NCBI GenBank assembly: GCA_012032285.1
Contig: JAAURJ010000010.1
Span: 1 to 64,000, forward strand
DNA: 64,000 bases
Direction of reading: 5' to 3'
Source of the DNA: Sphingomonadales bacterium
GTDB taxonomy: Bacteria > Pseudomonadota > Alphaproteobacteria > Sphingomonadales > Sphingomonadaceae
The position numbers were made by a program, and so were the translations under genes. A model generated the notes under the pieces. That model did no database searches. It worked only from the letters and a program-made list of their open reading frames with translations, and was not told where the DNA came from. Every line of letters starts with the position of its first letter. The first letter of the stretch is position 1. This document shows positions 4,611-24,483 of the stretch, one piece after another.

Positions 4611-5528
4611 TCAGGCATATTCCTTCTCCTCAGCCGGAATATTCGCATTTTTGGCAACGCAAGCATTGATATAATCGAGCGCTTCATCAGCTCGTGCAGC
4701 TGCGGTTAGAATGGCGTTCTTGTCATTTCTCAGAATCTCGATCCAGTGAGCGATATAGGAAGCATGGCCTTCGACCATGTCGTCTGGAAGCCCCAGTTGC
4801 GCGCTTAAAAAAGCTGCGCCGGTTTCCGCGACGAGTTCTTCAAATGCGTATGCTTTGTCGCCAAATCTTTTGCCGAATTTCCGGTCAAGCCGGGTATGAT
4901 GTCCGGTTGCGTGGATTAGTTCATGGGCTTTGATTGCGGCATAATCGGGATAGCTGCGAAATTGCTCCGGGTTGGGCAATTGGACATAGTTGCCGCGAAT
5001 GTTGAAGAAGGCAGCTGAGCCGCCATGACGATATTCAACGTCAGTTTTGGCAAAAAATTGGTCCAGTTCAGCTTTTTGTTCGCAAGGAGGCTGTTCATTT
5101 GCCGTGATTGGAGGAAAGTATTTTTCAGGGAGTTTCTCAATTTGCTCGACATTAAACACATGGTAGGACTTCATAATTCGGCGAAAATTCTGGCTGTTAT
5201 AGTCGTCTTCTGGATCTTTTGATTGGTCATCGACTGTGATTTGTTTGTAAAATATCGCTGGGCTCGATTTTTCGCCTTTGCGGACTTGGCCTCCTAATTT
5301 TTTGGCTTGTTGGAAGGTCATCCAGTATGGCGAACTATATCCTTTTTCGGCTGCTGTTGCCCAAAGATAAAGGCAATTGATGCCGCGATATGCCGTGCCG
5401 CAGGCGCGTAGCGGGCGGGTTAGTTTTGCTCGGGTCCATGGTTTTGTCCATGGTTTCACTCCTGCTTCCAATTTCGCAAGAATGGTATTTGTGATGGTTT
5501 GGGCAATGTCTGATTGGGGCTTTGTCAT
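4611..5528 (-). CDS. ardC: ArdC-like antirestriction protein
   Basis: A 305-residue protein. The N-terminal ArdC/DUF1738 domain (residues 1-130) has the family's features: QTITNTILAKLEAGVKPWTKPW, then YRGINCLYLW and YWMTFQQAKKLGGQVRKGEK. The C-terminal half is a zincin-like metallopeptidase with HELIHATGHHTRLDR near residue 204, matching HExxH. ArdC proteins protect incoming single-stranded plasmid DNA from restriction in the recipient. An AGGATCAGACC ribosome site precedes the ATG. A strong terminator separates it from the ParB-like gene upstream, so it probably has its own promoter. Confidence 0.93.
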   Translation of the reverse strand: MTKPQSDIAQTITNTILAKLEAGVKPWTKPWTRAKLTRPLRACGTAYRGINCLYLWATAAEKGYSSPYWMTFQQAKKLGGQVRKGEKSSPAIFYKQITVDDQSKDPEDDYNSQNFRRIMKSYHVFNVEQIEKLPEKYFPPITANEQPPCEQKAELDQFFAKTDVEYRHGGSAAFFNIRGNYVQLPNPEQFRSYPDYAAIKAHELIHATGHHTRLDRKFGKRFGDKAYAFEELVAETGAAFLSAQLGLPDDMVEGHASYIAHWIEILRNDKNAILTAAARADEALDYINACVAKNANIPAEEKEYA

Positions 5529-5609: not shown

Positions 5610-7574
5610 TCAGGCGGTTTCTGTTTCCGCCTGTATTTCGTCGCTCTCGATTTCATCTTGCTCTGGGACTGGAGATTCCTTATCTCCTGCCCCATTGGTT
5701 TCGAAACGCAGTTCTTCAGGAACCCAGCTTAATGCAGCTTCTTTGATTTCGGGGTCCACGAGTGTTGTTCCAGCGAAGATCTTCTCTGCTGCTTCTGCGA
5801 TCTCGCTCTTTTTTGATGAGGCATACCGGGCCGCCAATGTAGGGTCTCCTAGATCAGCAATGATCTTGATGATTGAGTCCTTACGTAGCCCATTAAAATA
5901 ATTCTCTTTGGTAGGGCGCCAATGGTGTGCTGAGTTAATGCCAATGATATTGCCGATATGGTTCATGAAGCGGTTGCTAAATTGGTCTGAATTGAGCGAG
6001 GCTGTCAGTCCGCTGGACATCATATAAGCAAGCCACGCGGCTTTATCGGCAGGGTCTGCTTCGCGGAAGCGATCAAAACTGCCTGTGAGGTCGCTGGCGC
6101 TGTACCAGTCCGCGTTAAGCTGTGATAAAATGACATCGCGCTGTTTCTCGGCATCGGTTTGCGGGGCTGCTTGGTGGCTAAGTGGATCGTTTTTATCGCG
6201 GAATGCCAATGTCAGCCCGGTTGCATGGCCGTCAGTGTAGGACAGCTGGGCTAAGATCATTTTGAAAATCACCAGATCGAGCGCAAGTTGGCTGTCTTGA
6301 GCGATATGCAAAGCGAGTATGTCTCGCCGGGCCATTGCCATCAATTCGGTTATTTTACGGCTGTGGACCGGTTTTTCATCGTTTTCGTTGTCAGTGGCAT
6401 TGTCTCCATTCCGGCTTTTTGACTTTAACGGCTTGTTACTGAGTAAGCAGTGATGGCTGGTCAGCTCGCCATTTTGGTTGAGATGCACGAATGTTCCTAT
6501 AAATTCCTTATCTTCATCTGGGATTGGCCCTCTGCGGTCCTTGATGGCGGAATATTTTTTTTCAAGAGTGTCAATTTGGCTGCTTATATCATTTTCGTTA
6601 TCATCATTGGCCTCTTCAAGAGCCGCGTATAGCGCTTGAATTTGTTCTTTGATTTGCTCGCATTCGGTTTCTTCTTCCTCGGTGAGTTCGATCTTTGGGA
6701 GGGAGTAATGTTGGAATTTTCCAGTCTCATTATAGTCAACATAAGTTGACAGGCCGTAGCGGATCCATCCGAAGCCATTTTGAGCCCTGAATTTTTTTGC
6801 ATCCTGCTGCATTTTTTCATCGGCGAGTTTTTCGACGATATGCGGATCAAGCCATTGGCTTTGATCTTCTTTTGCAAAGAGGTCTGCTTCGATGCGGCCT
6901 CCAGCGGCCAGATATGCTTTTTCACCCACATATAAGGCTGCGGCATTTGTCGACGGTATGCTGTCATCGAGTATCGTTCGCCGGATCATATTTGTGTTAT
7001 TTTGATATCCGCCCTCAGACAATTTTGTCCATGCAGAGAGCTGTTGGCTGTGGTCGCCTGTCAGACCGTAAGATTTCGCACTTTCGATTGAAATATAGCC
7101 GCCGCGCAGTGCTTCAAAGATCGTTGGTTCAAGATTGCCCAAGCGTAGCCTCATGCGGACATGGCGGAGGTCGCAGCCATAGCGGGCGGCAACGTCTTCT
7201 TCATTTTTTCCGCTCTGGATCATTTCGGAAAAGGCTTTGCATTCATCTGCGGCTGTCATTGCGATCCGCATGGTGTTTTCGGACAAGGAAAGGTCTTTTT
7301 GTGCTTCCTGGTCGATATCTCGAACATCGCAGGCGACTTCATATTTTTTTGGCAATGTGCCGTTCTTAACGAGCTGCGTTATTGCGCGCAGTCGTCTACC
7401 GCCGGCGAAGACTTGGTAATGGCCTTTTTTCTTGCTTGCTGTTACTTGCAGATTTTGGATAAGGCCGTTGGCAGCGATGTTGGCGGCAAGCTCATCAATG
7501 CTGTCTTCTGCATTGCTCTTGCGGACGTTGTTTTCTGATATTGATAATTTTTCGATTTGAATCATGCTAGTCAT
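5610..7574 (-). CDS. ParB/RepB/Spo0J-family protein, 654 aa
   Basis: I used the ATG at 7574 because it is preceded by AGGAGAATAGCA; the frame is open 12 codons further. Residues 1-95 are a ParB N-terminal nuclease-like domain (ENNVRKSN, IAANGLIQNLQV, FAGGRRLRAI), followed by a helix-turn-helix region (MIQSGKNEEDVAARYGCDLR, about 115-140). The rest is a long C-terminal part typical of the 600-700-residue plasmid ParB-like proteins. ParA lies 6 kb away with its own small partner, so this protein may not be the segregation ParB; ParB-like proteins of this size are common in plasmid leading regions. A terminator follows the stop. Confidence 0.9.
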   Translation of the reverse strand: MTSMIQIEKLSISENNVRKSNAEDSIDELAANIAANGLIQNLQVTASKKKGHYQVFAGGRRLRAITQLVKNGTLPKKYEVACDVRDIDQEAQKDLSLSENTMRIAMTAADECKAFSEMIQSGKNEEDVAARYGCDLRHVRMRLRLGNLEPTIFEALRGGYISIESAKSYGLTGDHSQQLSAWTKLSEGGYQNNTNMIRRTILDDSIPSTNAAALYVGEKAYLAAGGRIEADLFAKEDQSQWLDPHIVEKLADEKMQQDAKKFRAQNGFGWIRYGLSTYVDYNETGKFQHYSLPKIELTEEEETECEQIKEQIQALYAALEEANDDNENDISSQIDTLEKKYSAIKDRRGPIPDEDKEFIGTFVHLNQNGELTSHHCLLSNKPLKSKSRNGDNATDNENDEKPVHSRKITELMAMARRDILALHIAQDSQLALDLVIFKMILAQLSYTDGHATGLTLAFRDKNDPLSHQAAPQTDAEKQRDVILSQLNADWYSASDLTGSFDRFREADPADKAAWLAYMMSSGLTASLNSDQFSNRFMNHIGNIIGINSAHHWRPTKENYFNGLRKDSIIKIIADLGDPTLAARYASSKKSEIAEAAEKIFAGTTLVDPEIKEAALSWVPEELRFETNGAGDKESPVPEQDEIESDEIQAETETA

Positions 7575-7676
7575 TGCTATTCTCCTGAGTGGTTGAGTTG
7601 ATGCTTTCATGCACCAATGCTCATCCCCTTTTTCCCCCTCCCCTTTCTGGTTCGAGATTGTGCTGGAGATCTGGGT

Positions 7677-10600
7677 TTAATCTTTTTGGAGTTTGGTTAT
7701 GATCGCGGGGGCTTGGCGGCCTGGTATAAAAAGCCGGGTTTTGAAGCTTATGATTTCAGTGAAGCAGCCGATTGATTTATAATAGCTGAGCCGAAGTGGG
7801 TCATAGTCTTGGACTTCCAGCCTCTGCTCTTTGTTGACGATCTTGCATGTCAGCCTGTGTGTGTAGGATTCGTTCGGTCTAATCGCAATTGTTTGGCCGG
7901 CTTTTGCAAAGCTGATGATTTGCGCTGCGTTGTGGTTGGTTTCGACTTCGATGTTAAATGTACTGCATAGTTTACGCATCATGGCGGGATGGACAGTTCT
8001 TCCCAAGAGGGATTTTCCTGTTTGGTCAATGATCCGCTGGACCTTGCTATACTCTTGGTCAAGATGGTTCCAGATTGGCAGCAATTGTCCAGTGACGATA
8101 AAGATTTGCTCTTGCGTAATGATATCTTTCAGCTTGCGTTCTTTTGCAGTCCATAGCGCTTTGAGATGTTCTAGGTCGGCCAGTTCCCAGCTCGATTCAG
8201 CTAACTCGGCTTTTGTCATTAGGCTTTTGCCGCCTGGTCTGGTGATTATGTAGGTTTCAATGACGTCGCCTTCGTCTGTCATTTGGGTGTGATAGGGGAT
8301 GCAAATGCCTGGATTTCCGGATTTGGTGTTGAATAGCAGTTTGGCGCGGCTGTTTTTTGCAATTCTCAAAGCTTGTGCTAGGGTGGTCACAGGTTTTCTA
8401 TATTTGAGGTCAAGAGTTAGTAATTCGGTTGTTGCTTTGGAGCGCGGGTCGGTTCTGAGGATTTTGCAGTCAGTGACCTTGATTTCTTCGACCTTGAAGG
8501 TTTCAAGCCCGATATCAAGTGTGCCTGCTTTGCGTGCATCTTCTACACGGATTTCTATCATCGACATAAATTCATCGAATATGGCATTTTGTGTTTCAAT
8601 CTTCATGGCCAATATCCGGTTCAAATAGCGCTGGATTGTTGGATAGATTATATCGCCTGTTTCTCTGTCGATCAGTTTGAGGCCGGTTTGTTCTTCAAAC
8701 ATTGCCAATGTGGTGCTTTTCAGCTTGTTTTTGGTGAGAAGGTTGATCCAGGCAACAAGTGCATCTTTTGCATATTGGCTTTCCAGATTGTCCGCTGGAT
8801 TAAATAGGTTTTGCCCTCCGGTTTGTCGTTGGCCCTTGGTAAGCGCGCCTAAAGAGTCGAGCCTGCGGGCGATTGTTGAAATGAAGCGGCGCTCGCCTTT
8901 ACAATTGGTTGTGACAGGCCGAAAAATGGGTCCAGAAGCTTGGTGTGTGCGATTTGTGCGTCCAAGCCCCTGTATTGCTTTGTCTGCCCTCCAGCCCGGT
9001 TCGAGCAGGAAATGCTCGCGGCGCTCTTGGTTTTTGGCATTGAGACTGGCATGATAACTTCGGCCCGTGCCTCCTGCATCTGAAAATGCGAGTATTCTTT
9101 TTTCTCCATCCATAAATGCTTGGGCCTCTGCTATATTGCTTCTGGCAGATCGCGATTGGACAATTTGTTTGCCGGTTTGGTCAAACATAAGACGTCGGGT
9201 TCGCCCTGTTACTTCAGCTACATTTTCCTGCCCGAAATGGTTGATTAGGCTATCGAGTGCAGATGAGCAGTTGGGTAGTGCGCAGATTTGTTCCAGCAGG
9301 TTTTCGCGGGCTTCCAATGCTGCAGCTGATTGGATCGGGCAGCCATTGTTATCCAGCATCGGCTCCGAGCGTTCTTTGCCTTCATCGTCTACATAGATGC
9401 GCATTTGCGTTGTTGGGAAAGCGTTTTTCAGATAGTCGATTATATATTCGGTTGGTGACAGCTCGACGTCGAGGTCGGCTTTTTCCTGTTCGTCCATATC
9501 TGACAGTTTGCGCCCAAGCATCGCTTCGGCGGTTGTGACCAGCTGCACCACGCAGCTTCGGCCTTCTTCGAGTGAAATTTCGATTGCTAAAATGAGTGCA
9601 GGCATTTTCATTGCAAGCAGTGTTTGATTAAAGAATCTCTGCTTGCTGCTCTCGAAACGCGATCTGGCTGTTGATAATGCTCTGCTATTAAGCGTGGCGC
9701 CGGTCGCTGCGCATATGATATTGTTTAGTTGGAGCGTTTTCTCAAAATTGCGGTGGATAATGGACCAGGCGTCGGCATAGATATTGAATATAGCGATTTG
9801 TTCATCGGTGAGTTCGTGCTCAAGTATGTCATATTCTACGCCCTCAAAACTGAGTGAGCGTGCAACATATAGCCCTTGAGCCTTTAGCTCGCGTGCAACG
9901 ATTTCCATGGCTGCAATGCCGCCTTGTTTGATTTCAGAAATGAATCCGGCTTGGTTTGAAAAGGCCGTGTCTTTGCCCCACAAGCCTAGCCTGCTTGCGT
10001 ATGCGATATTTTCAATTTCCGAGGCGCCTGTGGCGCTGGAATAGATCACTCGTGCGTTCGGAAGAGCATTTTGGAGCCTCACTCCGGTTAAGCCTTGGAG
10101 AGATGCTGATTTAGCCCCAAATTCGTTTTTCGAGCCTGCTGCACCGCCCAAAGCATGTGATTCATCGAATATCAAAGCGCCGTTGAAATTGTCGCCTGCC
10201 CATTGGGCAACCTGATGGAGCCTGCTTCCTGCATCAGTTGAGTTGCGGATTGTCGCATACGTAGTGAATAATATGCCCTCTTTCATGTCGATAGGCCGTC
10301 CACTTTTCCAGCTGCTCAAAGGCTGTATGTCGAGTGCAATATTTCCAAGGGCTTTCCAGTCTCGCCGGGCATCTTCAATCAGCGCTGAGCTCTCGCTGAT
10401 CCAGATATGTTGCCTGTCTCCCTTGAGCCAGCGATCCATTATTATGGCTGCGATTTGGCGGCCTTTGCCTGCACCTGTTCCGTCACCTAGGAAAAAACCT
10501 TGGCGGTACGCGCGTCCTTGATCGGATTCGGAGAGTCGGAGAAGATCTTCGTCTGTTATGAATTTACCTGGTAGATATTGTTCTGTTGCTTCTCCGGCAT

Positions 10601-11876
10601 AAATGATCGTCTCCAGTTGTGCTTCGCTCAATATCCCTTCTGTTATAAGTTTGCGAGGCAGCGTTGGTTTGTAAGTTGGTTTAGGCGACTTGATTGATCC
10701 CATCGCTGCTGACTCAACAAGTTTGGAAGGATGAGGCTTTGCGCTCGGAATATCTATCGTGCTGGGCTGATATGCGAGATATTGGCCGATAATTGCTGGT
10801 GGAGATTTTTGGTCTGATATTGTGTATGGCAGTTCTTCAAATTGGTTCTCTGGAATCTTCAGAGTTGGTTTCTGCCTTGGCTCTGCGGGCTTGAAAGCTG
10901 AGAACAGATTTTGGCGATGGGCTTTGATCGGTTTTGCGTCTGGTTTTACTTTTCTGATAAGTGAGCTGGAGGATTGGAGCACATCTTGAAGATTGCCAGC
11001 AAGGCGAATTGGCGCAGAATTGGTTTTTCCCTCGTCAAGAACAGCGATTTTGATGTCGATTTGTGTTCCATGTTTTTTGAACGCTTCAGCAATATCGTAG
11101 ATCGCCGTTAATGTTGCATTGCCGCACTGGTTTGAAAATTTGGCTATCTTTTGCTCGGTATTGCAGAATGACTCTGGCATAATTGCAACAATTCTGCCGT
11201 TTGGAGCAAGACAGTTTGCAGCGCTGAGCAGATGTTTAATTGCTGCGTTCGGATCCGGCTGCCCATTAGTTTTGGCAAATGGTGGGTTCATCAATATGAT
11301 GTCATATTTTTCTTCAACGAAAGCATGGATGCTAGAGCTATCTTGGCAAAGGTGGCGGGCTTTTGGGTGTGCGATTTTGAGCAGTTCGCATCGCATCGGA
11401 TCGATTTCGTTCAGGGTCAGTTTGTGACCTGCTGATTTTGGGAATGCGGCGAGCAATCCTGTGCCTGCATTTGGCTCCATAACAGTATCATCTGGCCGGG
11501 CTTGTGCTATCTTCCAGGCCAGATAGCTCACCGCAATTGGTGTTGAAAACTGCTGAAGTTTGATTTGCTCTTCTGACCGTGTGGTGTGCGTTGGTTGCAT
11601 GAGGTTTATGCTCAAAAGCATATCTATTGCATCACCTCCGGACGGCAGATTTATGGATTTCAGGGCCAGGATGTTTGCCAGCTCGAGCATTTCAAAGCTG
11701 TCTTTTTGGGTCCAGATTCCGCTTTCGTTTGTTGTTCCAAAGCTGGATCGCATTGCTTGATTGAGCGTATCTCGTGATATAGCTTCGCAGTTTACGATGA
11801 GTGCGGCGATTTTGTTCGCGGCAGCTTCAATATATCTTGATTTTTCAGCGGCACTTAATTTTTCGGTATTTAGCAT
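7677..11876 (-). CDS. DNA methyltransferase fused to strawberry-notch-type helicase, 1399 aa
   Basis: Two enzymatic modules in one chain. Residues 110-290 are a class I SAM-dependent N6-adenine methyltransferase: motif I VMEPNAGTGLLAAF near 135 and catalytic NPPF near 197. Residues 420-1010 are a superfamily 2 helicase of the strawberry-notch type: Walker A GDGTGAGKGRQ near 466, DESH near 572, and a C-terminal helicase domain with QGLGRTNRTHQ near 970. The last 350 residues are a conserved tail. This methylase-helicase architecture is known from conjugative elements and resembles P1 DarB, which protects incoming DNA from restriction; that role is inferred here. AAAGG precedes the ATG. Confidence 0.9.
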   Translation of the reverse strand: MLNTEKLSAAEKSRYIEAAANKIAALIVNCEAISRDTLNQAMRSSFGTTNESGIWTQKDSFEMLELANILALKSINLPSGGDAIDMLLSINLMQPTHTTRSEEQIKLQQFSTPIAVSYLAWKIAQARPDDTVMEPNAGTGLLAAFPKSAGHKLTLNEIDPMRCELLKIAHPKARHLCQDSSSIHAFVEEKYDIILMNPPFAKTNGQPDPNAAIKHLLSAANCLAPNGRIVAIMPESFCNTEQKIAKFSNQCGNATLTAIYDIAEAFKKHGTQIDIKIAVLDEGKTNSAPIRLAGNLQDVLQSSSSLIRKVKPDAKPIKAHRQNLFSAFKPAEPRQKPTLKIPENQFEELPYTISDQKSPPAIIGQYLAYQPSTIDIPSAKPHPSKLVESAAMGSIKSPKPTYKPTLPRKLITEGILSEAQLETIIYAGEATEQYLPGKFITDEDLLRLSESDQGRAYRQGFFLGDGTGAGKGRQIAAIIMDRWLKGDRQHIWISESSALIEDARRDWKALGNIALDIQPLSSWKSGRPIDMKEGILFTTYATIRNSTDAGSRLHQVAQWAGDNFNGALIFDESHALGGAAGSKNEFGAKSASLQGLTGVRLQNALPNARVIYSSATGASEIENIAYASRLGLWGKDTAFSNQAGFISEIKQGGIAAMEIVARELKAQGLYVARSLSFEGVEYDILEHELTDEQIAIFNIYADAWSIIHRNFEKTLQLNNIICAATGATLNSRALSTARSRFESSKQRFFNQTLLAMKMPALILAIEISLEEGRSCVVQLVTTAEAMLGRKLSDMDEQEKADLDVELSPTEYIIDYLKNAFPTTQMRIYVDDEGKERSEPMLDNNGCPIQSAAALEARENLLEQICALPNCSSALDSLINHFGQENVAEVTGRTRRLMFDQTGKQIVQSRSARSNIAEAQAFMDGEKRILAFSDAGGTGRSYHASLNAKNQERREHFLLEPGWRADKAIQGLGRTNRTHQASGPIFRPVTTNCKGERRFISTIARRLDSLGALTKGQRQTGGQNLFNPADNLESQYAKDALVAWINLLTKNKLKSTTLAMFEEQTGLKLIDRETGDIIYPTIQRYLNRILAMKIETQNAIFDEFMSMIEIRVEDARKAGTLDIGLETFKVEEIKVTDCKILRTDPRSKATTELLTLDLKYRKPVTTLAQALRIAKNSRAKLLFNTKSGNPGICIPYHTQMTDEGDVIETYIITRPGGKSLMTKAELAESSWELADLEHLKALWTAKERKLKDIITQEQIFIVTGQLLPIWNHLDQEYSKVQRIIDQTGKSLLGRTVHPAMMRKLCSTFNIEVETNHNAAQIISFAKAGQTIAIRPNESYTHRLTCKIVNKEQRLEVQDYDPLRLSYYKSIGCFTEIISFKTRLFIPGRQAPAIITKLQKD

Positions 11877-13354: not shown

Positions 13355-13666
13355 TTAAAGGCCATGTTCCCGCTTATATAGTGCCCATGCTTCTTCGATG
13401 AGAACGCCCTGCACTACACCTCGTCGGTTTTTTTCTTCTTTGATTTCGTCGGAAACATTTGGCAAAACTTTGGCGTGAACTTGGCCTGTTCTTGGACTTG
13501 GTTTGCGTCCTGGTGTTCCGCTGCTTTCGCGCGAATTGAAGCCTTTTTTCGCTGCCCGTTCTTCCATTTGGCTTAATTCTTTTTCGCTCTGAAGTTTTCG
13601 TGTTGATCTAAGTTTTTTAAGGTCAACTTGGAACGGTGTGACATTATCATTTTTGGGTTGGGTCAT
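13355..13666 (-). CDS. Small ParA partner protein
   Basis: A 103-residue basic protein overlapping the end of parA by 20 bases, as expected for a partition operon. The N-terminal half is Lys/Arg/Ser-rich and probably disordered. The C-terminal part (HAKVLPNVSDEIKEEKNRRG, then VVQGVLIEEAWALY) is consistent with a ribbon-helix-helix-like DNA-binding domain. By position and size it is the centromere-binding partner of ParA; this is inferred from context. Confidence 0.7.
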   Translation of the reverse strand: MTQPKNDNVTPFQVDLKKLRSTRKLQSEKELSQMEERAAKKGFNSRESSGTPGRKPSPRTGQVHAKVLPNVSDEIKEEKNRRGVVQGVLIEEAWALYKREHGL

Positions 13667-14330
13667 TGGTGTTGCCTTTCTCTAATCTGATCAATACTGT
13701 TTCAGCAAAGCGTTTCGCATTTGCTTTGGCTGCTTCCATATTACCTTGCGGCGGCATAGTGTATAAATTACCGCCGGTTGCAAATAGTGCAGAATAGGCA
13801 GATCGTAGCGCTAGTTTACATTCAATCACGTCGACGCCTTGTGATACGAGCGATTCGTGAATGCCTCTTTCTTGCATTGAAATAATAGTATTGCTCGTCA
13901 TGGTGAAGGCCACTGCCAATTGTATTTTTCTACCTAGAGCTTCTTCTTCTTCTTCGATTAAATTTATGATTTCTGCACCAATATCAGCGTCTAGGCTTGT
14001 TGGGCGCATTGGTGTTATAACAAGATCGGCTTGAGTTATTGCTCTGGACATTTTCCGCGAAGCTATTCCTTCTGGGTCTACTATCACGATTTTTCCGTCG
14101 CCTTCATGCTCTCGGATCATTTTAATGATATTCGATTCAGTGATATCCCCAATCACCTGTATGCCATTCGGCAGTTTTGCCGCGTTTGCCCATCGTGTGA
14201 CGGATAAGTTAGGGTCGGTGTCAAGGATTGTTACAGGAATATCTAGGAGCGCCATTTCTGTTGCAAGAATGACAGCGACTGTGCTTTTCCCGGTTCCACC
14301 TTTGGGCGACGCGATAACGATTGTGGGCAC
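13647..14330 (-). CDS. parA: ParA-family partition ATPase
   Basis: A 227-residue Walker-type ATPase: the deviant Walker A is SPKGGTGKST at residues 8-17, then the TILDTDPN motif and the VIVDPEGIASRKM motif. I chose the GTG at 14330 because an AAAGGAGG ribosome site ends four bases before it; an ATG further upstream (MYPVSK) lies among the upstream repeats. ParA moves plasmid copies apart with a centromere-binding partner, here probably the gene at 13355-13666. The repeat array just upstream is the likely operator and centromere. Confidence 0.9.
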   Translation of the reverse strand: MPTIVIASPKGGTGKSTVAVILATEMALLDIPVTILDTDPNLSVTRWANAAKLPNGIQVIGDITESNIIKMIREHEGDGKIVIVDPEGIASRKMSRAITQADLVITPMRPTSLDADIGAEIINLIEEEEEALGRKIQLAVAFTMTSNTIISMQERGIHESLVSQGVDVIECKLALRSAYSALFATGGNLYTMPPQGNMEAAKANAKRFAETVLIRLEKGNTNDPTQK

Positions 14331-14344
14331 TTGACCTCCTTTAT

Positions 14345-14541
14345 ATCTGATTAGTTTAGATACCGGATACATATGCAAACCGGATATGCAAAGCAATCCG
14401 GTTTATTATTATATCGGATATTTTTTTTAATGGGATATCTAGGTTAATCCGGTATCTTTTTAAATCCGGTTTTACAGCTAATCTGGTTGTCACATAAATC
14501 GGATTTGCTTTCATATCCGGTATTTTGAACAATCTGGTAAT
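14345..14541. repeat. ATCCGGT-type repeat array upstream of parA
   Basis: About ten copies, in both orientations, of a seven- to eight-base motif ATCCGGT/ACCGGAT with one-base variants (ATCTGGT, ATCGGAT) are spread over roughly 200 bases, for example TACCGGATAC at 14361-14370 and AATCCGGTATC around 14456-14467. They sit between parA and the upstream gene on the same strand. An array like this is what a partition operator and centromere (parS-like) looks like. A replication iteron role is possible but repC is 2.7 kb away. Confidence 0.65.
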
Positions 14542-17175: not shown

Positions 17176-18441
17176 TCAATCCATTTTTCTGCGTTTCATG
17201 ATGGTTCCCCATAGGTTCAGTTCATCTTTGTGATATTTGGCCCACATACCCATAAAATAGCCGCCGGCATTTTTGCTGGGGTTGTTGACATTCCATTCTA
17301 GCGTGATGGCAAACATTATTTGTGCATATCCGAGCGGAAGCTCAGCCAGCGCTTTGATCCATAGATCTCGTTTCAGATGGATAAGGTTATGGCCGTGACT
17401 ACTTATCGCTTTGCCGAGCGCTTCCCAGCTGCGGCTGTCCTTTTTTTTTTCATCGATGCATATAAATTCAGCGACAGATGGGAAAAGGTGAGGAATTTCG
17501 GATGATGAGATATCCCCATATTGTGTAAATGTGATTTCATGCTCCTTTTCTGGTGGATCTGAGGGTGAGTTGGAGACACTACCCTCTCCGCTACGGCTAC
17601 CTTGGTAAGCCTTTATATCTCCTGAAGGAGATTCGGTGCTTGTAGAGGTAATTTGGGGGTCATTTTTTCCACCCTGGGGTGTTAATTTATTTGGTTGAGT
17701 TTCGCTGAAATGTTTATGCAAAAGGTCTGTGAGTTTCTTGTTCGCTTCGCCCAGCTGTTGCCATACGTTCATCATTTTTTCTAGTGATCGTGAATGGGCA
17801 GCATCTTTGATTTTGGGTGCGAGACTGTCAGTGAGTGTAGCAATGTCCAGCCACCGGTTTTCTGCTATATTTAGGTGCAAGCATTGCTCATACATTTGGC
17901 CGATGTTTCTGGTAAAGCGAAGCGCTTCGCGTTTCATTTTTTGGAGCTTGCTGTAATTTTTTTCAAATTGTTCGATTGCGATTTCATGGTCGTGAAATTT
18001 TGCTGCAAGCGGCGCGAGATTTATACCAACGGTTATATCGAGTAGATGGCCTTTTCGTGGTCCAGTTGTATGACGGCCGCCCGATCTTTTTCCATTGCTT
18101 GTTTCGCTCCTGCTGATGAGCCCCAGGTTATTTAATTCTCTCATCTGTTTCTTCACTGAGCTGACGGTAAGTCCGATGTCAGCAGCTAGCCGTTCATTAC
18201 TGGCAAAACAAATTGGACGTCCATCATGCCAGTCAATTTCTCTTGTATAGCTGAAAAGTGTCGTGAGTAGTAGCATTGCAGGTTTGCTGTAGCCTAGAAT
18301 CGGCCCAGCTTTGGCGCATATTTCTAAAATGCGTTTGTAATGAATGCCTTTGTCCATTTGAAATTTCGCAGCGTATGCGTCTGCATCGATCGTCGCTAAT
18401 GTGACGGTCGTAAATCCGGTCTTTGCTAAACCTATTGCCAT
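17176..18441 (-). CDS. repC: Plasmid replication initiator RepC-like
   Basis: A 421-residue protein. The N-terminal third has the RP-C-type winged helix: GRPICFASNERLAADIGLT, then VSSVKKQMRELNNLGLISR and a basic RRSGGRH-like segment. A variable, proline/serine-rich linker (about 260-320) follows, and the end carries the C-terminal RepC domain (NAGGYFMGMWAKYHKDELNL). RepC starts replication, usually from an origin inside its own coding region. An AAGGGAG ribosome site lies eight bases before the ATG. repA/repB are not adjacent, so the classical repABC order is absent; parA is 3 kb away. Confidence 0.85.
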   Translation of the reverse strand: MAIGLAKTGFTTVTLATIDADAYAAKFQMDKGIHYKRILEICAKAGPILGYSKPAMLLLTTLFSYTREIDWHDGRPICFASNERLAADIGLTVSSVKKQMRELNNLGLISRSETSNGKRSGGRHTTGPRKGHLLDITVGINLAPLAAKFHDHEIAIEQFEKNYSKLQKMKREALRFTRNIGQMYEQCLHLNIAENRWLDIATLTDSLAPKIKDAAHSRSLEKMMNVWQQLGEANKKLTDLLHKHFSETQPNKLTPQGGKNDPQITSTSTESPSGDIKAYQGSRSGEGSVSNSPSDPPEKEHEITFTQYGDISSSEIPHLFPSVAEFICIDEKKKDSRSWEALGKAISSHGHNLIHLKRDLWIKALAELPLGYAQIMFAITLEWNVNNPSKNAGGYFMGMWAKYHKDELNLWGTIMKRRKMD

Positions 18442-18505
18442 TATTTTGCTCCCTTGTGATCCCGGTGAGCGGGCAAAAAAATCCTGTTGCGCGAAGCACG
18501 CTATA

Positions 18506-18534
18506 TTGACATCGCTGTAGGAAGGTTATATCAA
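18506..18534 (+). promoter_or_regulatory. Promoter of the first repC-proximal RNA
   Basis: A -35 TTGACA (18506-18511), 17-base spacer, and -10 TATCAA (18529-18534), on the strand opposite to repC. It sits about 65 bases upstream of the repC start, where repABC-type counter-transcribed RNA promoters lie. Confidence 0.6.
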
Positions 18535-18540
18535 CGCTCT

Positions 18541-18620
18541 TTATCGTTAGCGCTTTTTGGGCACTGCAATGCCTGATATGTCTTCCACTGATGCCCGGCT
18601 TCGTGCCGGGCTTCGTTTAT
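18541..18620 (+). ncRNA. Candidate counter-transcribed RNA, unit A
   Basis: Predicted start about seven bases after the -10 box. The transcript would contain a small internal stem (GGCA-CTGCAA-TGCC) and end at a terminator stem GCCCGGC (18593-18599) / GCCGGGC (18605-18611) followed by TTCGTTTAT. It runs antisense to the repC leader. In repABC plasmids a short RNA of this kind represses repC and sets incompatibility; that role here is inferred from position. Confidence 0.55.
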
Positions 18621-18817
18621 CCGCTCACAGCGTATCCTTTCTCTTGATGTTAATATTATTCTCATCTGACTGCTGGCAGTCGGTCGAGCTGCTGTGCGAG
18701 GAGAGGGTGCTATAACTCCCATTTTGATTCGTGCTGGTTATACTGGTTGACATAAATGCCATTCGATCCTCGCTGAATTTAGAATGCAAAAAAGGGCCGC
18801 GATAATCGCGTTAGCCT

Positions 18818-18922
18818 TTGCTTTGGTGGATTGTTTGTGCTATCAAGGGATTTGATGATTATCCGCTTTCAGCCGCCAAGCTGTGAAGCACTATTAGATG
18901 CCCGGCCCTGCGCCGGGTTTTC
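18818..18922 (+). ncRNA. Candidate short RNA, unit B
   Basis: A second unit with the same build: -35 TTGCTT (18818-18823), a 17-base spacer, -10 TATCAA (18841-18846, identical to unit A), then a body with an internal stem (GCTTTCAGC with GCTGTGAAGC) and a terminator stem CCCGGC/GCCGGG (18901-18917) followed by TTTT. The predicted transcript is about 70 bases, from near 18853. It is on the plus strand upstream of repC. Confidence 0.48.
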
Positions 18923-19128
18923 TATGTCTGCAAATGGCTTCCTTTCATTTTGATTTTAATACTCATCACTGGCGCACGGTCTTCAAACCAAGCTCCTGAG
19001 ATGGGCTTTGAAATATCGTTCGTTTTCGAATGTTTCGCGTAGCAATGAATAAGATCTTGTTTAATTTCTGTAGGCATTGCTTCATTCAATCGTTTGGAAA
19101 ACGGACGCAAAAACGGCTGTGAAAATCA

Positions 19129-19247
19129 TTCACTGCTTGCTCTGCTATTTATATGATGCTATGAGGAATTTGCTTCAGGTTCTCTTGTAGCCGTATGGCT
19201 TATGAGCATCGTTTTCAGGAGCCCGGCCTTGTGCCGGGCTTTTTTTA
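19129..19247 (+). ncRNA. Candidate short RNA, unit C
   Basis: A third unit: -35 TTCACT (19129-19134), 17-base spacer, -10 TATGAT (19152-19157), a body with an internal stem (AGCC-GTAT-GGCT), and terminator stem GCCCGGC/GCCGGGC (19221-19239) followed by eight T. The predicted transcript is about 84 bases. The terminator T-run overlaps the last codons of the minus-strand gene at 19245. Confidence 0.5.
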
Positions 19248-19817
19248 TTTTCCAGACAATTTTTTCTCCTCGTTAAAATTGAAATTTGGTTGCAGTGCGG
19301 TGTCATTTGAACGCTCCAGCGCGTCGGGCATGGTGATCAGGATCGCGTGAATTGCTTTAGCTCTGGGCAGTCCCAATTCCTTTTTGATACGAGTTAAATA
19401 TTCGATACTTTCAACACTGAGAGCAGTCGTGATGTCATGCACGGGTTCAGTCCTGGGAAATATTGGCGGCATCTCAAGTTGTTTCGGTTCGATCTGTTTG
19501 GCAGTGATCTTTACGATTTGGTCAAGCATTTTGCCGAGGCTTCTGATTTTGTGCCTTGCTTGCATTTCTTTGATCTGTTGGTTTAGTGGGCGTGGGAGTT
19601 GCACCCTAAAGGTCAGCTCCCCTTGGCTTTTAAGGCGCTTGCGCCAATTGGCGCTTTTCCGGGCGGGCGTTGATTCGAGTCGAGCTGTATCCATGGCGCT
19701 ATTTTGCGTCATAATGGGGCTAGTGTCAATGTTTCCCCATTTATTTTGATGCAACTGCGCGATAGGGAATATTGCTATTGGTGGCTTATTGTCAGCTTGT
19801 GTATGGTTAGACATCAT
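19245..19817 (-). CDS. Hypothetical basic protein, 190 aa
   Basis: An intact frame with a double ATG. The middle (residues 55-115) is strongly basic and helical (RKRLKSQGELTFRVQLPRPL, then NQQIKEMQARHKIRSLGKML) and looks like a DNA-binding ribbon-helix-helix-type segment. The C-terminal part (SVESIEYLTRIKKELGLPRA) also looks helical. No family name can be given. It overlaps the upstream membrane-protein gene by 11 bases and its stop abuts the terminator of RNA unit C. Confidence 0.65.
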   Translation of the reverse strand: MMSNHTQADNKPPIAIFPIAQLHQNKWGNIDTSPIMTQNSAMDTARLESTPARKSANWRKRLKSQGELTFRVQLPRPLNQQIKEMQARHKIRSLGKMLDQIVKITAKQIEPKQLEMPPIFPRTEPVHDITTALSVESIEYLTRIKKELGLPRAKAIHAILITMPDALERSNDTALQPNFNFNEEKKLSGK

Positions 19818-20376
19818 TTTCGTGTTCCAATGTCTTGATCAGTTTGCTTAAATGGCTGACTTGAGGGGATGGTGTTCGCTCTGTTTCTTTTTCTTCGAGT
19901 ACGGCGCGCCATTCCTGAATGTCTTGCACTCGGATCGGGAATGCTCTTGCCCTTTTGAGCATTGAATACGCTAATTGCAGAGCGAAATATGGATCTTGGC
20001 TCAGTATTAGTTTATCTATTTCTTGCAGCGAAGCTATTTCATCGCCGTGTAGATTAGCTTCTGTTCCTATTGTTGATGAAGGGGCTCTGCCGTGTTCAGC
20101 AAGCTCATTCCCTTCAGCCTTGATCGCCATTGCTACAATAATTGAGGCAAATCCAATTCCGAACCCGATAATTTCGAGGACATTTATCGTTTGTTTGTTG
20201 AGACCGATGTTATGGTTGGCCAATATGTCAAAAATGGCAATTGGCGCAGAGATTAAGATGATTCCCGTGAATAGCAATATTCCCGTGATATGATTTTGAA
20301 ACAATATGTTATATTTATTATTGGGATTCCCTAGGAATAAGCTGTGCGGGTTATGTTCGTTTTGACGATGGTTCAT
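19807..20376 (-). CDS. Membrane protein with cytoplasmic tail, 189 aa
   Basis: Two hydrophobic segments (about residues 30-52 and 66-86) followed by a charged, helical C-terminal domain of about 100 residues. No signal peptide. The family is not recognised. It overlaps the following basic-protein gene, so they probably form one operon. Confidence 0.65.
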   Translation of the reverse strand: MNHRQNEHNPHSLFLGNPNNKYNILFQNHITGILLFTGIILISAPIAIFDILANHNIGLNKQTINVLEIIGFGIGFASIIVAMAIKAEGNELAEHGRAPSSTIGTEANLHGDEIASLQEIDKLILSQDPYFALQLAYSMLKRARAFPIRVQDIQEWRAVLEEKETERTPSPQVSHLSKLIKTLEHENDV

Positions 20377-22203: not shown

Positions 22204-24483
22204 TTAGTATGTCTTGTCGGCGATTATTGTGATATTCGATTTTATAAAATCGTCAATTTTCAGAGGTATATCTATAATTTTACCGCGCGCTTGGTTACAA
22301 CCCATATGGCGTAATTCTGTCAAGATATCGCTATCTTCCAGGTCATCGGCAGTTGTGATAATGCTATATAGCTTGGCGATTCGTAAGGCAGCGTCAACGA
22401 GGATTTTTTGTCCGATTGACCGGTTGATATTTGTAAATTCTCTTGAAAAGAAAATTTCGTCAAACCTAATATTCTGAAGAATGTGGATGTCATCAGAGGA
22501 TGTTCCGAAATCGCCTAAGCCGATTTTTACACCTGTATTTTTCAGTGTTTTTATTTTGTTTATTACGGATTCATTTTTGAGATATTCTCTGAAATCTATT
22601 ATTTCTATTGTCAACGCACTGGGCTCGCAGGATTCCGCTTTTAGCATGTCGATTAGTTTTGTTATGAATTCTTTCTCCAGTAATAACATTGTAGGAATTT
22701 TCAAGCTGATGGTGAAAGAAGAGTTTATGCTGCTTAGTTTTGCTGCGTGCTGTATGGCTTCGATTGTCAGATAATCGTAAAGCATCGGTACATTGTTTGT
22801 ATTCTGCGCCATTATTTGTATCTGGGATGCGGTGATATTGCCTTGGATCGGGTGGTTCCAATGAGCGTTTGCTTCGGCAGAATTCATTTGGCCGGTTTGC
22901 AAATTTTTAGTGGCGTTAAGCATGACTAATACTTGTCCATTTTTTATCGCCCTGGAAAATTCTTGTTCGAACTGTTCTCTTATTTCTGCTAGATAATCGC
23001 GTGGATTGCTAACGATATATGTTGAGCCAGTTTTATGCGCTTTAGTTGAAGCAGCGATTGCGTTCGCGCTGCGCTGTTTAACACTTTCCATTACGTCTCG
23101 GTCTATGCCGAAGTAAATATCGACTTCTAGTTTATGGTTATCCACGTCGATTGATTTGATGAAGAGATTTCGCAAGGCCGTGACATAATTAACAAATTCT
23201 TCAGTTTTCATTGAGGGTATTTCCCATAGAAACTGTCCGGTTTCGTTATGGGTAAGCTGTTTTTCGTCCACTAGACTTGTTAGTCGATGACCGACTTCCC
23301 TTATGATCTTCGTGTGAGTTATTGGTTCTTCAAATCTCGCTTTGTTTTCGGCTATTGTAAATTTAGCGGCGATCAATATGCCTGTAGAGAGAATTTCATT
23401 GGCTGTGTAACTCGCTGAATTGTTGAAGCCGGTTTCAATTGTGCGCTGTACTCTTAGAAGTGCTGCTTTTTTGAGGCCTACATATATTCCGCTTGCTATG
23501 AGAAATGTGATTCCTGGCAAAGGATCATTTGGGATATGAATTACTGTTAGCCAACTACTCGCTACCAATAGAATTGCAATACCTCCGATCGTTATAAATT
23601 TGCTTTGACGTAGGCCTGTTGTCGTTAGTAGCGTCATTCCGACCAGCAAGGAGAATATGAATAATGGTCCCCATCCGATGCTGATTGGAATATTTCGTTT
23701 TAAGGTTTCAGTTCCGAGCGCATGGAAAACTACTCCTGGGTATTCACCCCAACCTGGCATTGAATGGACGTCATTTTGAGATAGGTCGGTGACGCCGACG
23801 ATTACAGTTTTTCCGGCAAGTTTTTTCGCTCCTGCGGTTTGTTTGAGAACGTCAACCGCATTTACGATGGGGATAGTTTTGGGGTTGATCGAATAATCGA
23901 GTTTATAAGTCGTTACTTGGTCTGTTTTTATATTGGCAGCACTTGCTGATAGTGATTGGATGCGACCTCGACTTGTTTCTATGTTGAGTGGTATTTCCCA
24001 GATATAGCTAAAGAGATATGGTAAGTAGGCCGATACGGCGGGTGCCTTGCCTACGACCTGCTGATGTGAATAAACGGTTTCAGGTGTGGTTGTATCATTA
24101 TCGCTAGCGAGGGCAATGATCTTCGTTTTGCTCTGCATTCCTGCGAGCGTTCGACGAAGCGCGTCATCTTCCCGGGGTTCTGTTTTACCTTGATACCCAA
24201 TATCGACGTATATGGCTTGGGGTTTTTGCTGGTCGATACGTTGCAGCAATTCTGCTTGCTTGGATCTCGGCCATGGCCAGCGCCCAACTTCTTTTATTGA
24301 GGGCGAATCTATTCCTACGATCACGACTTGCCCTGATGCTTCTTTTAGCTTAATTTTTTTCTGTAGGATTTCTATGCTAAGCGAGATTGGCTGCAGAAGT
24401 TCTATTCCGCCAATTATCGCAGTGATTGCAGCGATGAGTGAAATAACACCGGCAATTTTGCGTTTATTTAGAGTCAAGGCCAT
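22204..24483 (-). CDS. CHASE2 membrane protein with degenerate GGDEF and EAL-like domains
   Basis: A 759-residue protein. An N-terminal TM anchor precedes a CHASE2 sensor domain (VVIVGIDSPSIKEVGRWPWP, VGVTDLSQNDVHSMPGWGEY), then two or three TM segments around residues 265-335. The cytoplasmic part holds a GGDEF-like region with ETGQFLWE in place of GGDEF near 416, and an EAL-like domain (470-750) with VLVMLNATKNLQTGQMNSAE, LTIEIID and LGDFGTS near 655, where the second motif lacks the normal double Asp. Both catalytic sites therefore look inactive, so a c-di-GMP-binding or purely structural role is more likely than synthesis or hydrolysis. The 33-residue peptide gene follows it. Confidence 0.85.
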   Translation of the reverse strand: MALTLNKRKIAGVISLIAAITAIIGGIELLQPISLSIEILQKKIKLKEASGQVVIVGIDSPSIKEVGRWPWPRSKQAELLQRIDQQKPQAIYVDIGYQGKTEPREDDALRRTLAGMQSKTKIIALASDNDTTTPETVYSHQQVVGKAPAVSAYLPYLFSYIWEIPLNIETSRGRIQSLSASAANIKTDQVTTYKLDYSINPKTIPIVNAVDVLKQTAGAKKLAGKTVIVGVTDLSQNDVHSMPGWGEYPGVVFHALGTETLKRNIPISIGWGPLFIFSLLVGMTLLTTTGLRQSKFITIGGIAILLVASSWLTVIHIPNDPLPGITFLIASGIYVGLKKAALLRVQRTIETGFNNSASYTANEILSTGILIAAKFTIAENKARFEEPITHTKIIREVGHRLTSLVDEKQLTHNETGQFLWEIPSMKTEEFVNYVTALRNLFIKSIDVDNHKLEVDIYFGIDRDVMESVKQRSANAIAASTKAHKTGSTYIVSNPRDYLAEIREQFEQEFSRAIKNGQVLVMLNATKNLQTGQMNSAEANAHWNHPIQGNITASQIQIMAQNTNNVPMLYDYLTIEAIQHAAKLSSINSSFTISLKIPTMLLLEKEFITKLIDMLKAESCEPSALTIEIIDFREYLKNESVINKIKTLKNTGVKIGLGDFGTSSDDIHILQNIRFDEIFFSREFTNINRSIGQKILVDAALRIAKLYSIITTADDLEDSDILTELRHMGCNQARGKIIDIPLKIDDFIKSNITIIADKTY

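Follow-up and report, generated by a model that had tools for sequence, protein, structure and literature searches.

The DNA upstream of the plasmid replication initiator gene repC in this sphingomonad contig raises the question of why a single initiator gene should be preceded by three units that each resemble the gene of a counter-transcribed RNA (ctRNA) and are read in the direction opposite to repC. The genes and units concerned are listed here in the coordinates of the window, by which we mean the whole 64,000-nucleotide stretch analysed (positions 1 to 64,000 of contig JAAURJ010000010.1).

17176-18441, minus strand: repC, encoding a plasmid replication initiator of 421 aa (PF03428, E 1.2e-24), with its start 43 nt beyond unit A.
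18485-18624, plus strand: unit A, a predicted ctRNA module, with a -35 box TTGACA (18506-18511), a 17-nt spacer, a -10 box TATCAA (18529-18534), a hairpin (18560-18573) and a terminator (18593-18611).
18625-18762, minus strand: small ORF B (45 codons), which starts 35 nt past unit B (+35) and stops at the edge of unit A (0).
18798-18931, plus strand: unit B, a predicted ctRNA module, with a -35 box TTGCTT (18818-18823), a 17-nt spacer, a -10 box TATCAA (18841-18846), a loop hairpin (18870-18883) and a terminator (18900-18918).
18922-19077, minus strand: small ORF C (51 codons), which starts 40 nt past unit C (+40) and stops at +10 of the edge of unit B.
19118-19252, plus strand: unit C, a predicted ctRNA module, with a -35 box TTCACT (19129-19134), a 17-nt spacer, a -10 box TATGAT (19152-19157), a hairpin (19189-19200) and a terminator (19217-19243).
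19245-19817, minus strand: orf190, whose homologues abut the ctRNA module in some of the relatives.
19807-20376, minus strand: orf189, overlapping orf190 by 11 nt.

Along the minus strand, orf189 and orf190 come first, then module C with small ORF C, module B with small ORF B, and finally module A and repC. A preliminary description of this DNA had placed three promoter, short RNA and terminator units on the plus strand, opposite to repC, on what it took to be a repABC plasmid, and the boxes with their 17-nt spacers lie exactly where it put them. Each unit also has the internal stem (GGCA-CTGCAA-TGCC in A, CAGC-CGCCAA-GCTG in B and AGCC-GTAT-GGCT in C) and the GCCCGGC/GCCGGGC-type terminator that it reported. 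Only unit A, however, stands just before repC; units B and C face minus-strand small ORFs of their own, which had been overlooked. A multi-unit locus was right in kind, but the replicon is, from its gene content, of the repC type rather than repABC, since the two genes upstream of repC, orf190 and orf189, match no ParA or ParB family in profile searches. No repA or repB lies directly upstream, and the genes for ParA (13647-14396) and a ParB-domain protein (5610-7610) are both on the other side of repC. Orf189 and orf190 likely form one minus-strand operon, and neither falls in a Pfam or NCBIfam family at the usual cut-offs. Because it encodes ParA, a ParB-domain protein, a TrwC-type relaxase, a TraD/TrwB-type coupling protein and F-type transfer proteins, the contig is probably a conjugative plasmid. 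Elsewhere in the window we note an ArdC-type anti-restriction protein (4611-5528, minus strand) and a strawberry-notch helicase/methyltransferase (7677-11876, minus strand), probably accessory genes of such a plasmid, and, a few kb from the replicon, a CHASE2 and EAL domain protein (22204-24483, minus strand) that is a candidate cyclic-di-GMP phosphodiesterase.

RepC scores 125.7 bits against NF040974 in the profile search, under the cut-off of 150, and its relatives in plasmid records are distant, with all 547 records below 60% identity; no relative was found at E 0.001 in the 36 other genomes of the genus, and none was confirmed by exact peptide patterns among viral and GTDB contigs. Orf190 matches a set of seven module-abutting ORFs of relatives (hhalign probability 96, E 3.8e-9), with a blastp E of 8e-12 against its counterpart in Novosphingobium sp. 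MD-1 (L034 orf262) and 0.09 against that of L018, and has no relatives in viral contigs or, by tblastn, in plasmid records. The RepC of another genome of the same family (G301) starts almost identically to that of Sphingomonas sp. AAP5, from which we take the host to be a sphingomonad.

Boxes and hairpins by themselves are weak evidence for ctRNA genes, and the promoter boxes are near chance. A generic promoter scan gives eight sites with 4.7 expected from shuffles, and of the three promoters scores only that of unit C; a generic terminator scan gives nine with 4.4 expected. As these scans are only about two-fold over shuffles, the case cannot rest on boxes, and the significance of the units comes instead from comparison with relatives. 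Within the region, a repeat search groups the three terminators in one family at spacings of 307 and 321, and a GCAAAAA motif recurs at spacings of 313 and 321. The bodies of A, B and C between -35 box and terminator are no more similar to one another than shuffled sequences are, by which we reject a recent tandem duplication with recognisable bodies, and for the same reason cross-talk among the three predicted ctRNAs is unlikely.

For the comparison with relatives we used a covariance model, R1, built from 27 aligned related modules that include unit A and exclude units B and C. In the window R1 scores 89.0 bits for A, 38.4 bits for C (E 1.7e-9) and 35.4 bits for B (E 1.1e-8), with the next-best match at 14.1 bits, and so recovers both of the units withheld from training. 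The matches are full-length, and a gene start lies +43 (A), +40 (C) and +35 (B) beyond the module, within the distance of about 30-50 nt by which we define the family. In 396 genomes of the order, scanned with stricter filters and at most eight candidates scored per genome, there are 20 matches of at least 60 bits in 19 genomes, window included, and between 35 and 60 bits only C, B and one match in G298. In 385 genomes of the class (E 1e-4) the best match outside the window is 36.4 bits, and apart from the window's own there is none at 60 bits or more. Terminator-type matches elsewhere in whole genomes reach about 28-37 bits. In Sphingomonas paeninsulae the one, divergent module ahead of RepC reaches 40.7 bits, showing that a canonically placed module can score this low.

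Nucleotide comparison leads to the same family. A blastn search with the replicon finds a stretch of at most 50 nt (18590-18639) at 85-95% identity in six plasmids, all of sphingomonads, with nothing else at E 0.01, and a query with the short stretch adds more sphingomonad plasmids at 82-95% among the matches listed, alongside many short unrelated matches. The conserved stretch corresponds to the unit A terminator and the element TTCGTTTATCCGCTCA. Related modules share an anatomy of a GGCGCGAAGCGCGC hairpin, a -35 box like TTGAC or TTGAA, a -10 region, a hairpin-bearing body, a terminator and the conserved element. Typically 41-50 nt beyond them, a gene for RepC or for an HTH_36-type protein, probably also an initiator, starts on the opposite strand, at dozens of sphingomonad plasmid and contig loci. 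The same module thus precedes repC or an HTH-type gene again and again, and the proposal that unit A is the RepC counter-transcribed RNA is well supported by these comparisons, with a promoter and intrinsic terminator of a predicted RNA opposite the repC leader both in the sequence and in R1. The membership of B and C in repC-type ctRNA control is supported at the level of the family; they belong to the same module family as A, as had been suggested, but are not recognisable as recent copies of it. RepC itself lies directly downstream of unit A only.

No Rfam model matches the module in the window or in the relatives compared. The window has no match at the gathering score, none of 25 weak matches at 18400-19300 is to a ctRNA family, and SorX (E 0.015) and five other weak matches that we viewed as alignments rest largely on the common terminator shape. 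In 20 relative loci the single Rfam match is a glycine riboswitch away from the module. An Rfam-unmatched module family common to RepC and HTH_36-type genes of sphingomonads (L018-L072, L112-L114) is an observation in its own right. Searched against plasmids, the DNA of units B and C gives four short matches, all of terminator size, and no sister plasmid able to show conservation of the two units was found in viral, GTDB contig and plasmid searches.

A second line of evidence is seen with the small ORFs. The stop codons of the minus-strand ORFs lie at +8 (orf190), +10 (small ORF C) and 0 (small ORF B) of the module edge. Several relatives have no longer ORF abutting the module, and the stop rule applies only where one exists; there the ORF mostly ends at 0 to +10 (for example L019, L020, L027, L032, L034, L038, L049, L071 and L072). 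In dinucleotide shuffles an ORF starting and stopping at the module edges arises in 0.8% for C, 1.0% for B and in 0 of 5000 for both together, in a test whose start window (+30 to +50) was fixed after seeing small ORF B (+35) and the small ORF of locus L026 (+32). Their predicted products have no relatives in the searches made. Small ORF C has no match in Pfam, NCBIfam, PHROG, PDB or plasmid-record searches, small ORF B none in the profile searches (Pfam, NCBIfam, PHROG), and the L026 small ORF only weak partial matches (E 0.015 or worse) in 296 genomes of the order. Neither B nor C is significantly similar in protein sequence to the other or to the L026 small ORF. Short DNA matches do exceed shuffles: the regions of small ORFs B and C match each other at z 5.2, and small ORF B matches L026 at z 4.4.

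The minus-strand leader carries further elements, as follows.

18475-18501, minus strand: attenuator-like hairpin (18489-18501) and T7 run (18475-18481) in the repC leader; RNAfold gives five pairs, one of them G-U, with three strict pairs consecutively.
18788-18810, minus strand: attenuator-like hairpin CGCGA/TCGCG (18798-18810) and T6 run (18788-18793) before small ORF B.
19109-19133, minus strand: attenuator-like hairpin GTGAA/TTCAC (19119-19133) and T5 run (19109-19113) before small ORF C.
18465-18484: repC-proximal arm of a long-range leader stem, inverted repeat I1 (duplex -21.2 kcal/mol, shuffle p 0.038).
18609-18628: distal arm of the long-range leader stem, bearing the TTCGTTTATCCGCTCA element and pairing with 18465-18484.

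The 803-nt minus-strand leader contains exactly three runs of five or more T, one behind each hairpin, and at least three such runs occur in 0.1% of shuffles (mononucleotide shuffles, as for the loop motif below). In 45 of 52 distinct modules the ctRNA -35 box has a hairpin of at least four pairs next to it; in B, C, the distal module of L026 and L111 the stem letters differ and the pairing is maintained. Runs of at least four T are present in 37 of the 52, with at most two T consecutively in L026 distal, L032 (3882) and L111, so a module need not include the U-tract.

The long-range stem joins the ORF-stop side and the start side of a module. It is clear in A, weak in C (-13.7 kcal/mol, p 0.16) and L026 distal (-12.8), and absent in B (-9.8, p 0.46). 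Across 41 modules, hand-picked with near-duplicates mostly left out and with related clades that inflate the significance, cognate arms pair at a mean of -22.8 kcal/mol, compared with -19.5 for exchanged arms, a difference reached in 0 of 5000 permutations.

Of 52 distinct modules, 39 have a recurrent loop on the body hairpin (CGCCAA, TTGGCG or TTGCCGG) with stems that vary, compared with 18 of 5200 shuffles. Unit B has CGCCAA on a stem of its own, and A, C, L026 distal, L032 (3882) and L111 are without the loop. We note that CGCCAA is present in 11 of the 52 and its reverse complement TTGGCG in 23, as if the U-turn loop had shifted from one partner, antisense RNA or target, to the other; the UUGG motif fits the YUNR U-turn of kissing antisense loops. 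When leaders are folded with the ctRNA target masked, the accessibility of the Shine-Dalgarno sequence and start falls in 13 of 15, by only 0.02 in B and C, and rises in L043 and in unit A (from 0.62 to 0.81), contrary to the proposed switch, so that no clean switch emerges from the folding.

Tandem arrangements are rare. Among 56 strong module loci (at least 60 bits; 49 different sequences, with flanks of 800 nt or more on either side in 51 of the loci), gathered not without bias but by likeness to the unit A terminator region, RepC likeness or R1, three have more than one unit: the window with three, and L026 and L032 with two each. The pairs L003/L056, L006/L073 and window/L070 are each counted once in the 56, and a strong match in G301:C21 that has no locus is left out. 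Further strong loci (L112-L114) and L111 have one unit each. Weak module pairs 0.8-1.07 kb apart in G298, G293, G255 and G423 were rejected as tandem units; they are mostly matches to the terminator half, and their ORF lists, by eye, lack a rep layout. Such same-strand terminator-type pairs recur (L085-L088 in these four genomes, and G484:C60) and are treated as generic terminators. We also observe, upstream of repC in L041, L046 and L111, repeated TTCGTGCTTT- or TCGTGCTATCGATAACG-like blocks that resemble iterons and are perhaps those of a neighbouring replication initiator protein A.

Three loci provide context for the window. In Novosphingobium sp. MD-1 (L034) a single-unit form is seen, with an orf190 homologue, one module and RepC (PF03428, E 1.1e-9); the window has the same two ends, with two extra modules and two small ORFs in between. 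L026 carries two modules 320 nt apart in the order 100-codon ORF, distal module, 51-codon ORF, proximal module and HTH-type gene, which is the plan of the window with two modules. Its contig is labelled as a betaproteobacterial MAG and bears this sphingomonad-type two-module replicon at 6213-7998, the label reflecting either host transfer or a binning error. In L032 (2572-4952) an upstream ORF is followed by a module, a 108-codon ORF without a Pfam match, a second module 490 nt from the first and a full RepC, which looks like one replicon set into another.

Taking these observations together, we consider it rather probable that a repC-type replicon has its leader here, built of three ctRNA attenuation modules of the repC type that act in series with unrelated specificities. 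Each module would comprise a plus-strand ctRNA gene and, within the mRNA, a target, then a hairpin with a U-tract, then the start of the next ORF, and a transcript begun upstream of orf190 would encounter the three targets in turn. A ctRNA made in proportion to plasmid copies would pair with its matching target; the leader would then adopt the attenuator fold, and the next ORF would no longer be transcribed or translated. Since the three bodies are unrelated, each ctRNA is expected to act only on its own target. RepC would be produced only if every lock on a given transcript is passed, save where an internal promoter of the leader skips some of them; a minus-strand promoter-like site within unit B (18887-18858), one of a number of such sites within the shuffle range, could bypass unit C. 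The module family, its positions, the attenuator-like hairpins, the U-tracts and the small ORFs at module edges are seen in the sequence and by comparison with relatives, and we infer from them transcription of the RNAs, translation of the small ORFs, refolding, serial action and an effect on copy number and incompatibility. For serial attenuation we count the recovery of B and C by a model that excludes them, the fit of the small ORFs and repC to the start and stop offsets of relatives, the three U-tracts, the kept hairpin pairing, the family loop of B, the cognate arm pairing, the plan of L026 and the single-unit form in L034. Against it we count the masked folding of unit A and L043, the long-range stem absent in B and weak in C, the lack of the loop motif in A and C, a U-tract that is not fixed, small ORFs without homologues, L032, and the absence of a sister plasmid from our searches.

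Several of these points fit an alternative in which unit A alone controls RepC, B and C were left behind by nested or duplicated replicons, and the small ORFs are decaying remnants or chimeras of the ends of initiators and upstream ORFs. Relic modules do seem to exist, as the L032 module before its 108-codon ORF suggests. The missing or weak long-range stem in B and C, the lack of homologues of the small ORFs, and the absence of a U-tract from the second units of L026 and L032 would all fit relics; the end of small ORF B is frame-shifted from the AVSG end of relatives, and the short DNA matches among the small ORF regions fit an old duplication. Decay alone would nevertheless hardly keep promoters with 17-nt spacers, terminators, hairpins and U-tracts intact in A, B and C while their bodies diverged, both small ORFs start and stop at module edges, and L026 shares the plan. 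We regard this alternative as unlikely, although it is the main rival to serial attenuation.

Type I toxin-antitoxin systems consist of a small ORF with an overlapping antisense RNA, and the small ORFs with their overlapping antisense units match that anatomy. Small ORFs B and C could then be toxins silenced by RNAs B and C, stabilising the plasmid from a position beside repC. The C-terminal part of small ORF C loosely resembles SymE, a candidate dropped as no profile match was obtained. Neither small ORF matches SymE, Hok or another known toxin family in searches of Pfam and NCBIfam carried to E 10 and of PHROG carried to E 1; both are polar without an obvious membrane helix by eye, and the RNAs belong to a family of rep-control modules, all of which makes a toxin-antitoxin role very improbable. 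That there is no real feature here, generic G+C-rich terminators having met chance promoter boxes, is hardly credible: the modest excess in the promoter and terminator scans and the scores of terminator-type matches in whole genomes would allow it, but two independent full-length matches of 35-38 bits lie within 770 nt of A with their parts in order, and the ORF positions and U-tracts agree with them.

Serial attenuation can be set beside several known systems. In repABC plasmids such as p42d and pTiR10, as described in parts of PMC3155836 and PMC6090056, a ctRNA (inc-alpha, RepE, incA) lies between repB and repC, and the leader can form a large stem-loop or an intrinsic terminator. To the extent covered by those accounts, what is shared is a short, here predicted, antisense RNA that lies immediately before repC in the reverse orientation and has its own terminator, and possibly a leader of that kind. 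They differ in that three units are present rather than one, repA and repB do not lie upstream, two units face small ORFs, no Rfam ctRNA matches, and the predicted RNAs are about 70-84 nt, as estimated from boxes and terminators in the preliminary description, rather than the roughly 50-59 nt of repC and repABC ctRNAs. Plasmid pRmeGR4a carries repC without linked repAB, with an upstream antisense RNA that is a negative regulator and incompatibility factor (Izquierdo et al. 2005, as cited in the relevant part of PMC10194956), and pSmeLPU88b has two replication modules with a predicted ctRNA upstream of each repC (same part of PMC10194956). By these descriptions the window resembles the pRmeGR4a type in having RepC without linked repAB and an antisense RNA upstream, and differs in that there one RNA serves each repC, whereas here three units precede one.

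The single-unit modules of sphingomonads (L034, L018 on PP1Y plasmid Spl, L041 of Sphingomonas aliaeris and others) share the anatomy, a similar offset to the rep start and the conserved terminator-distal element, and lack a second module and small ORF before the rep gene. Plasmid pT181 has two countertranscripts (Kumar and Novick 1985, as cited in PMC2783167). The two are reported to overlap and to act on one target for one initiator. The window is like pT181 in having more than one antisense RNA per initiator, and unlike it in having three separate promoters, terminators and targets in series. In the relevant part of the Novosphingobium sp. PP1Y annotation (PMC4059872), a single p42d-type ctRNA is given for the first of four replicon columns, which is apparently that of the chromosome, while the other columns have none, though plasmid Spl bears the module. 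No description of tandem ctRNA units was recognised among the matches listed from the open-access literature on plasmid antisense RNAs and on small ORFs with repC. The nearest known kinds appear to be the single ctRNAs of repABC and repC plasmids, and the tandem form seems unusual.

If one transcript crosses all three modules, RepC expression would depend on three separate inhibitors. More tentatively, we offer as possible a stricter form of serial attenuation, a three-lock replicon in which every ORF after orf190 on the RepC transcript has a private ctRNA attenuator and RepC output is the product of three copy-proportional inhibitors. If true, this would give a steeper copy-number response and a multi-part incompatibility, and two of the locks would gate proteins of about 50 codons or leader peptides of a new kind.

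Sphingomonad plasmids often bear pollutant-degradation genes, and from the loci compared here these plasmids appear to have the single-unit module in common as a copy-control element, one that would offer a handle for incompatibility typing. The loop motif, CGCCAA on some ctRNAs and its complement TTGGCG on others, on varying stems, suggests a route by which specificity diversifies. Sharpening of copy-number control by serial antisense steps has, to our knowledge, been treated mainly in theory so far, and the tandem form would provide a natural test of whether it occurs.
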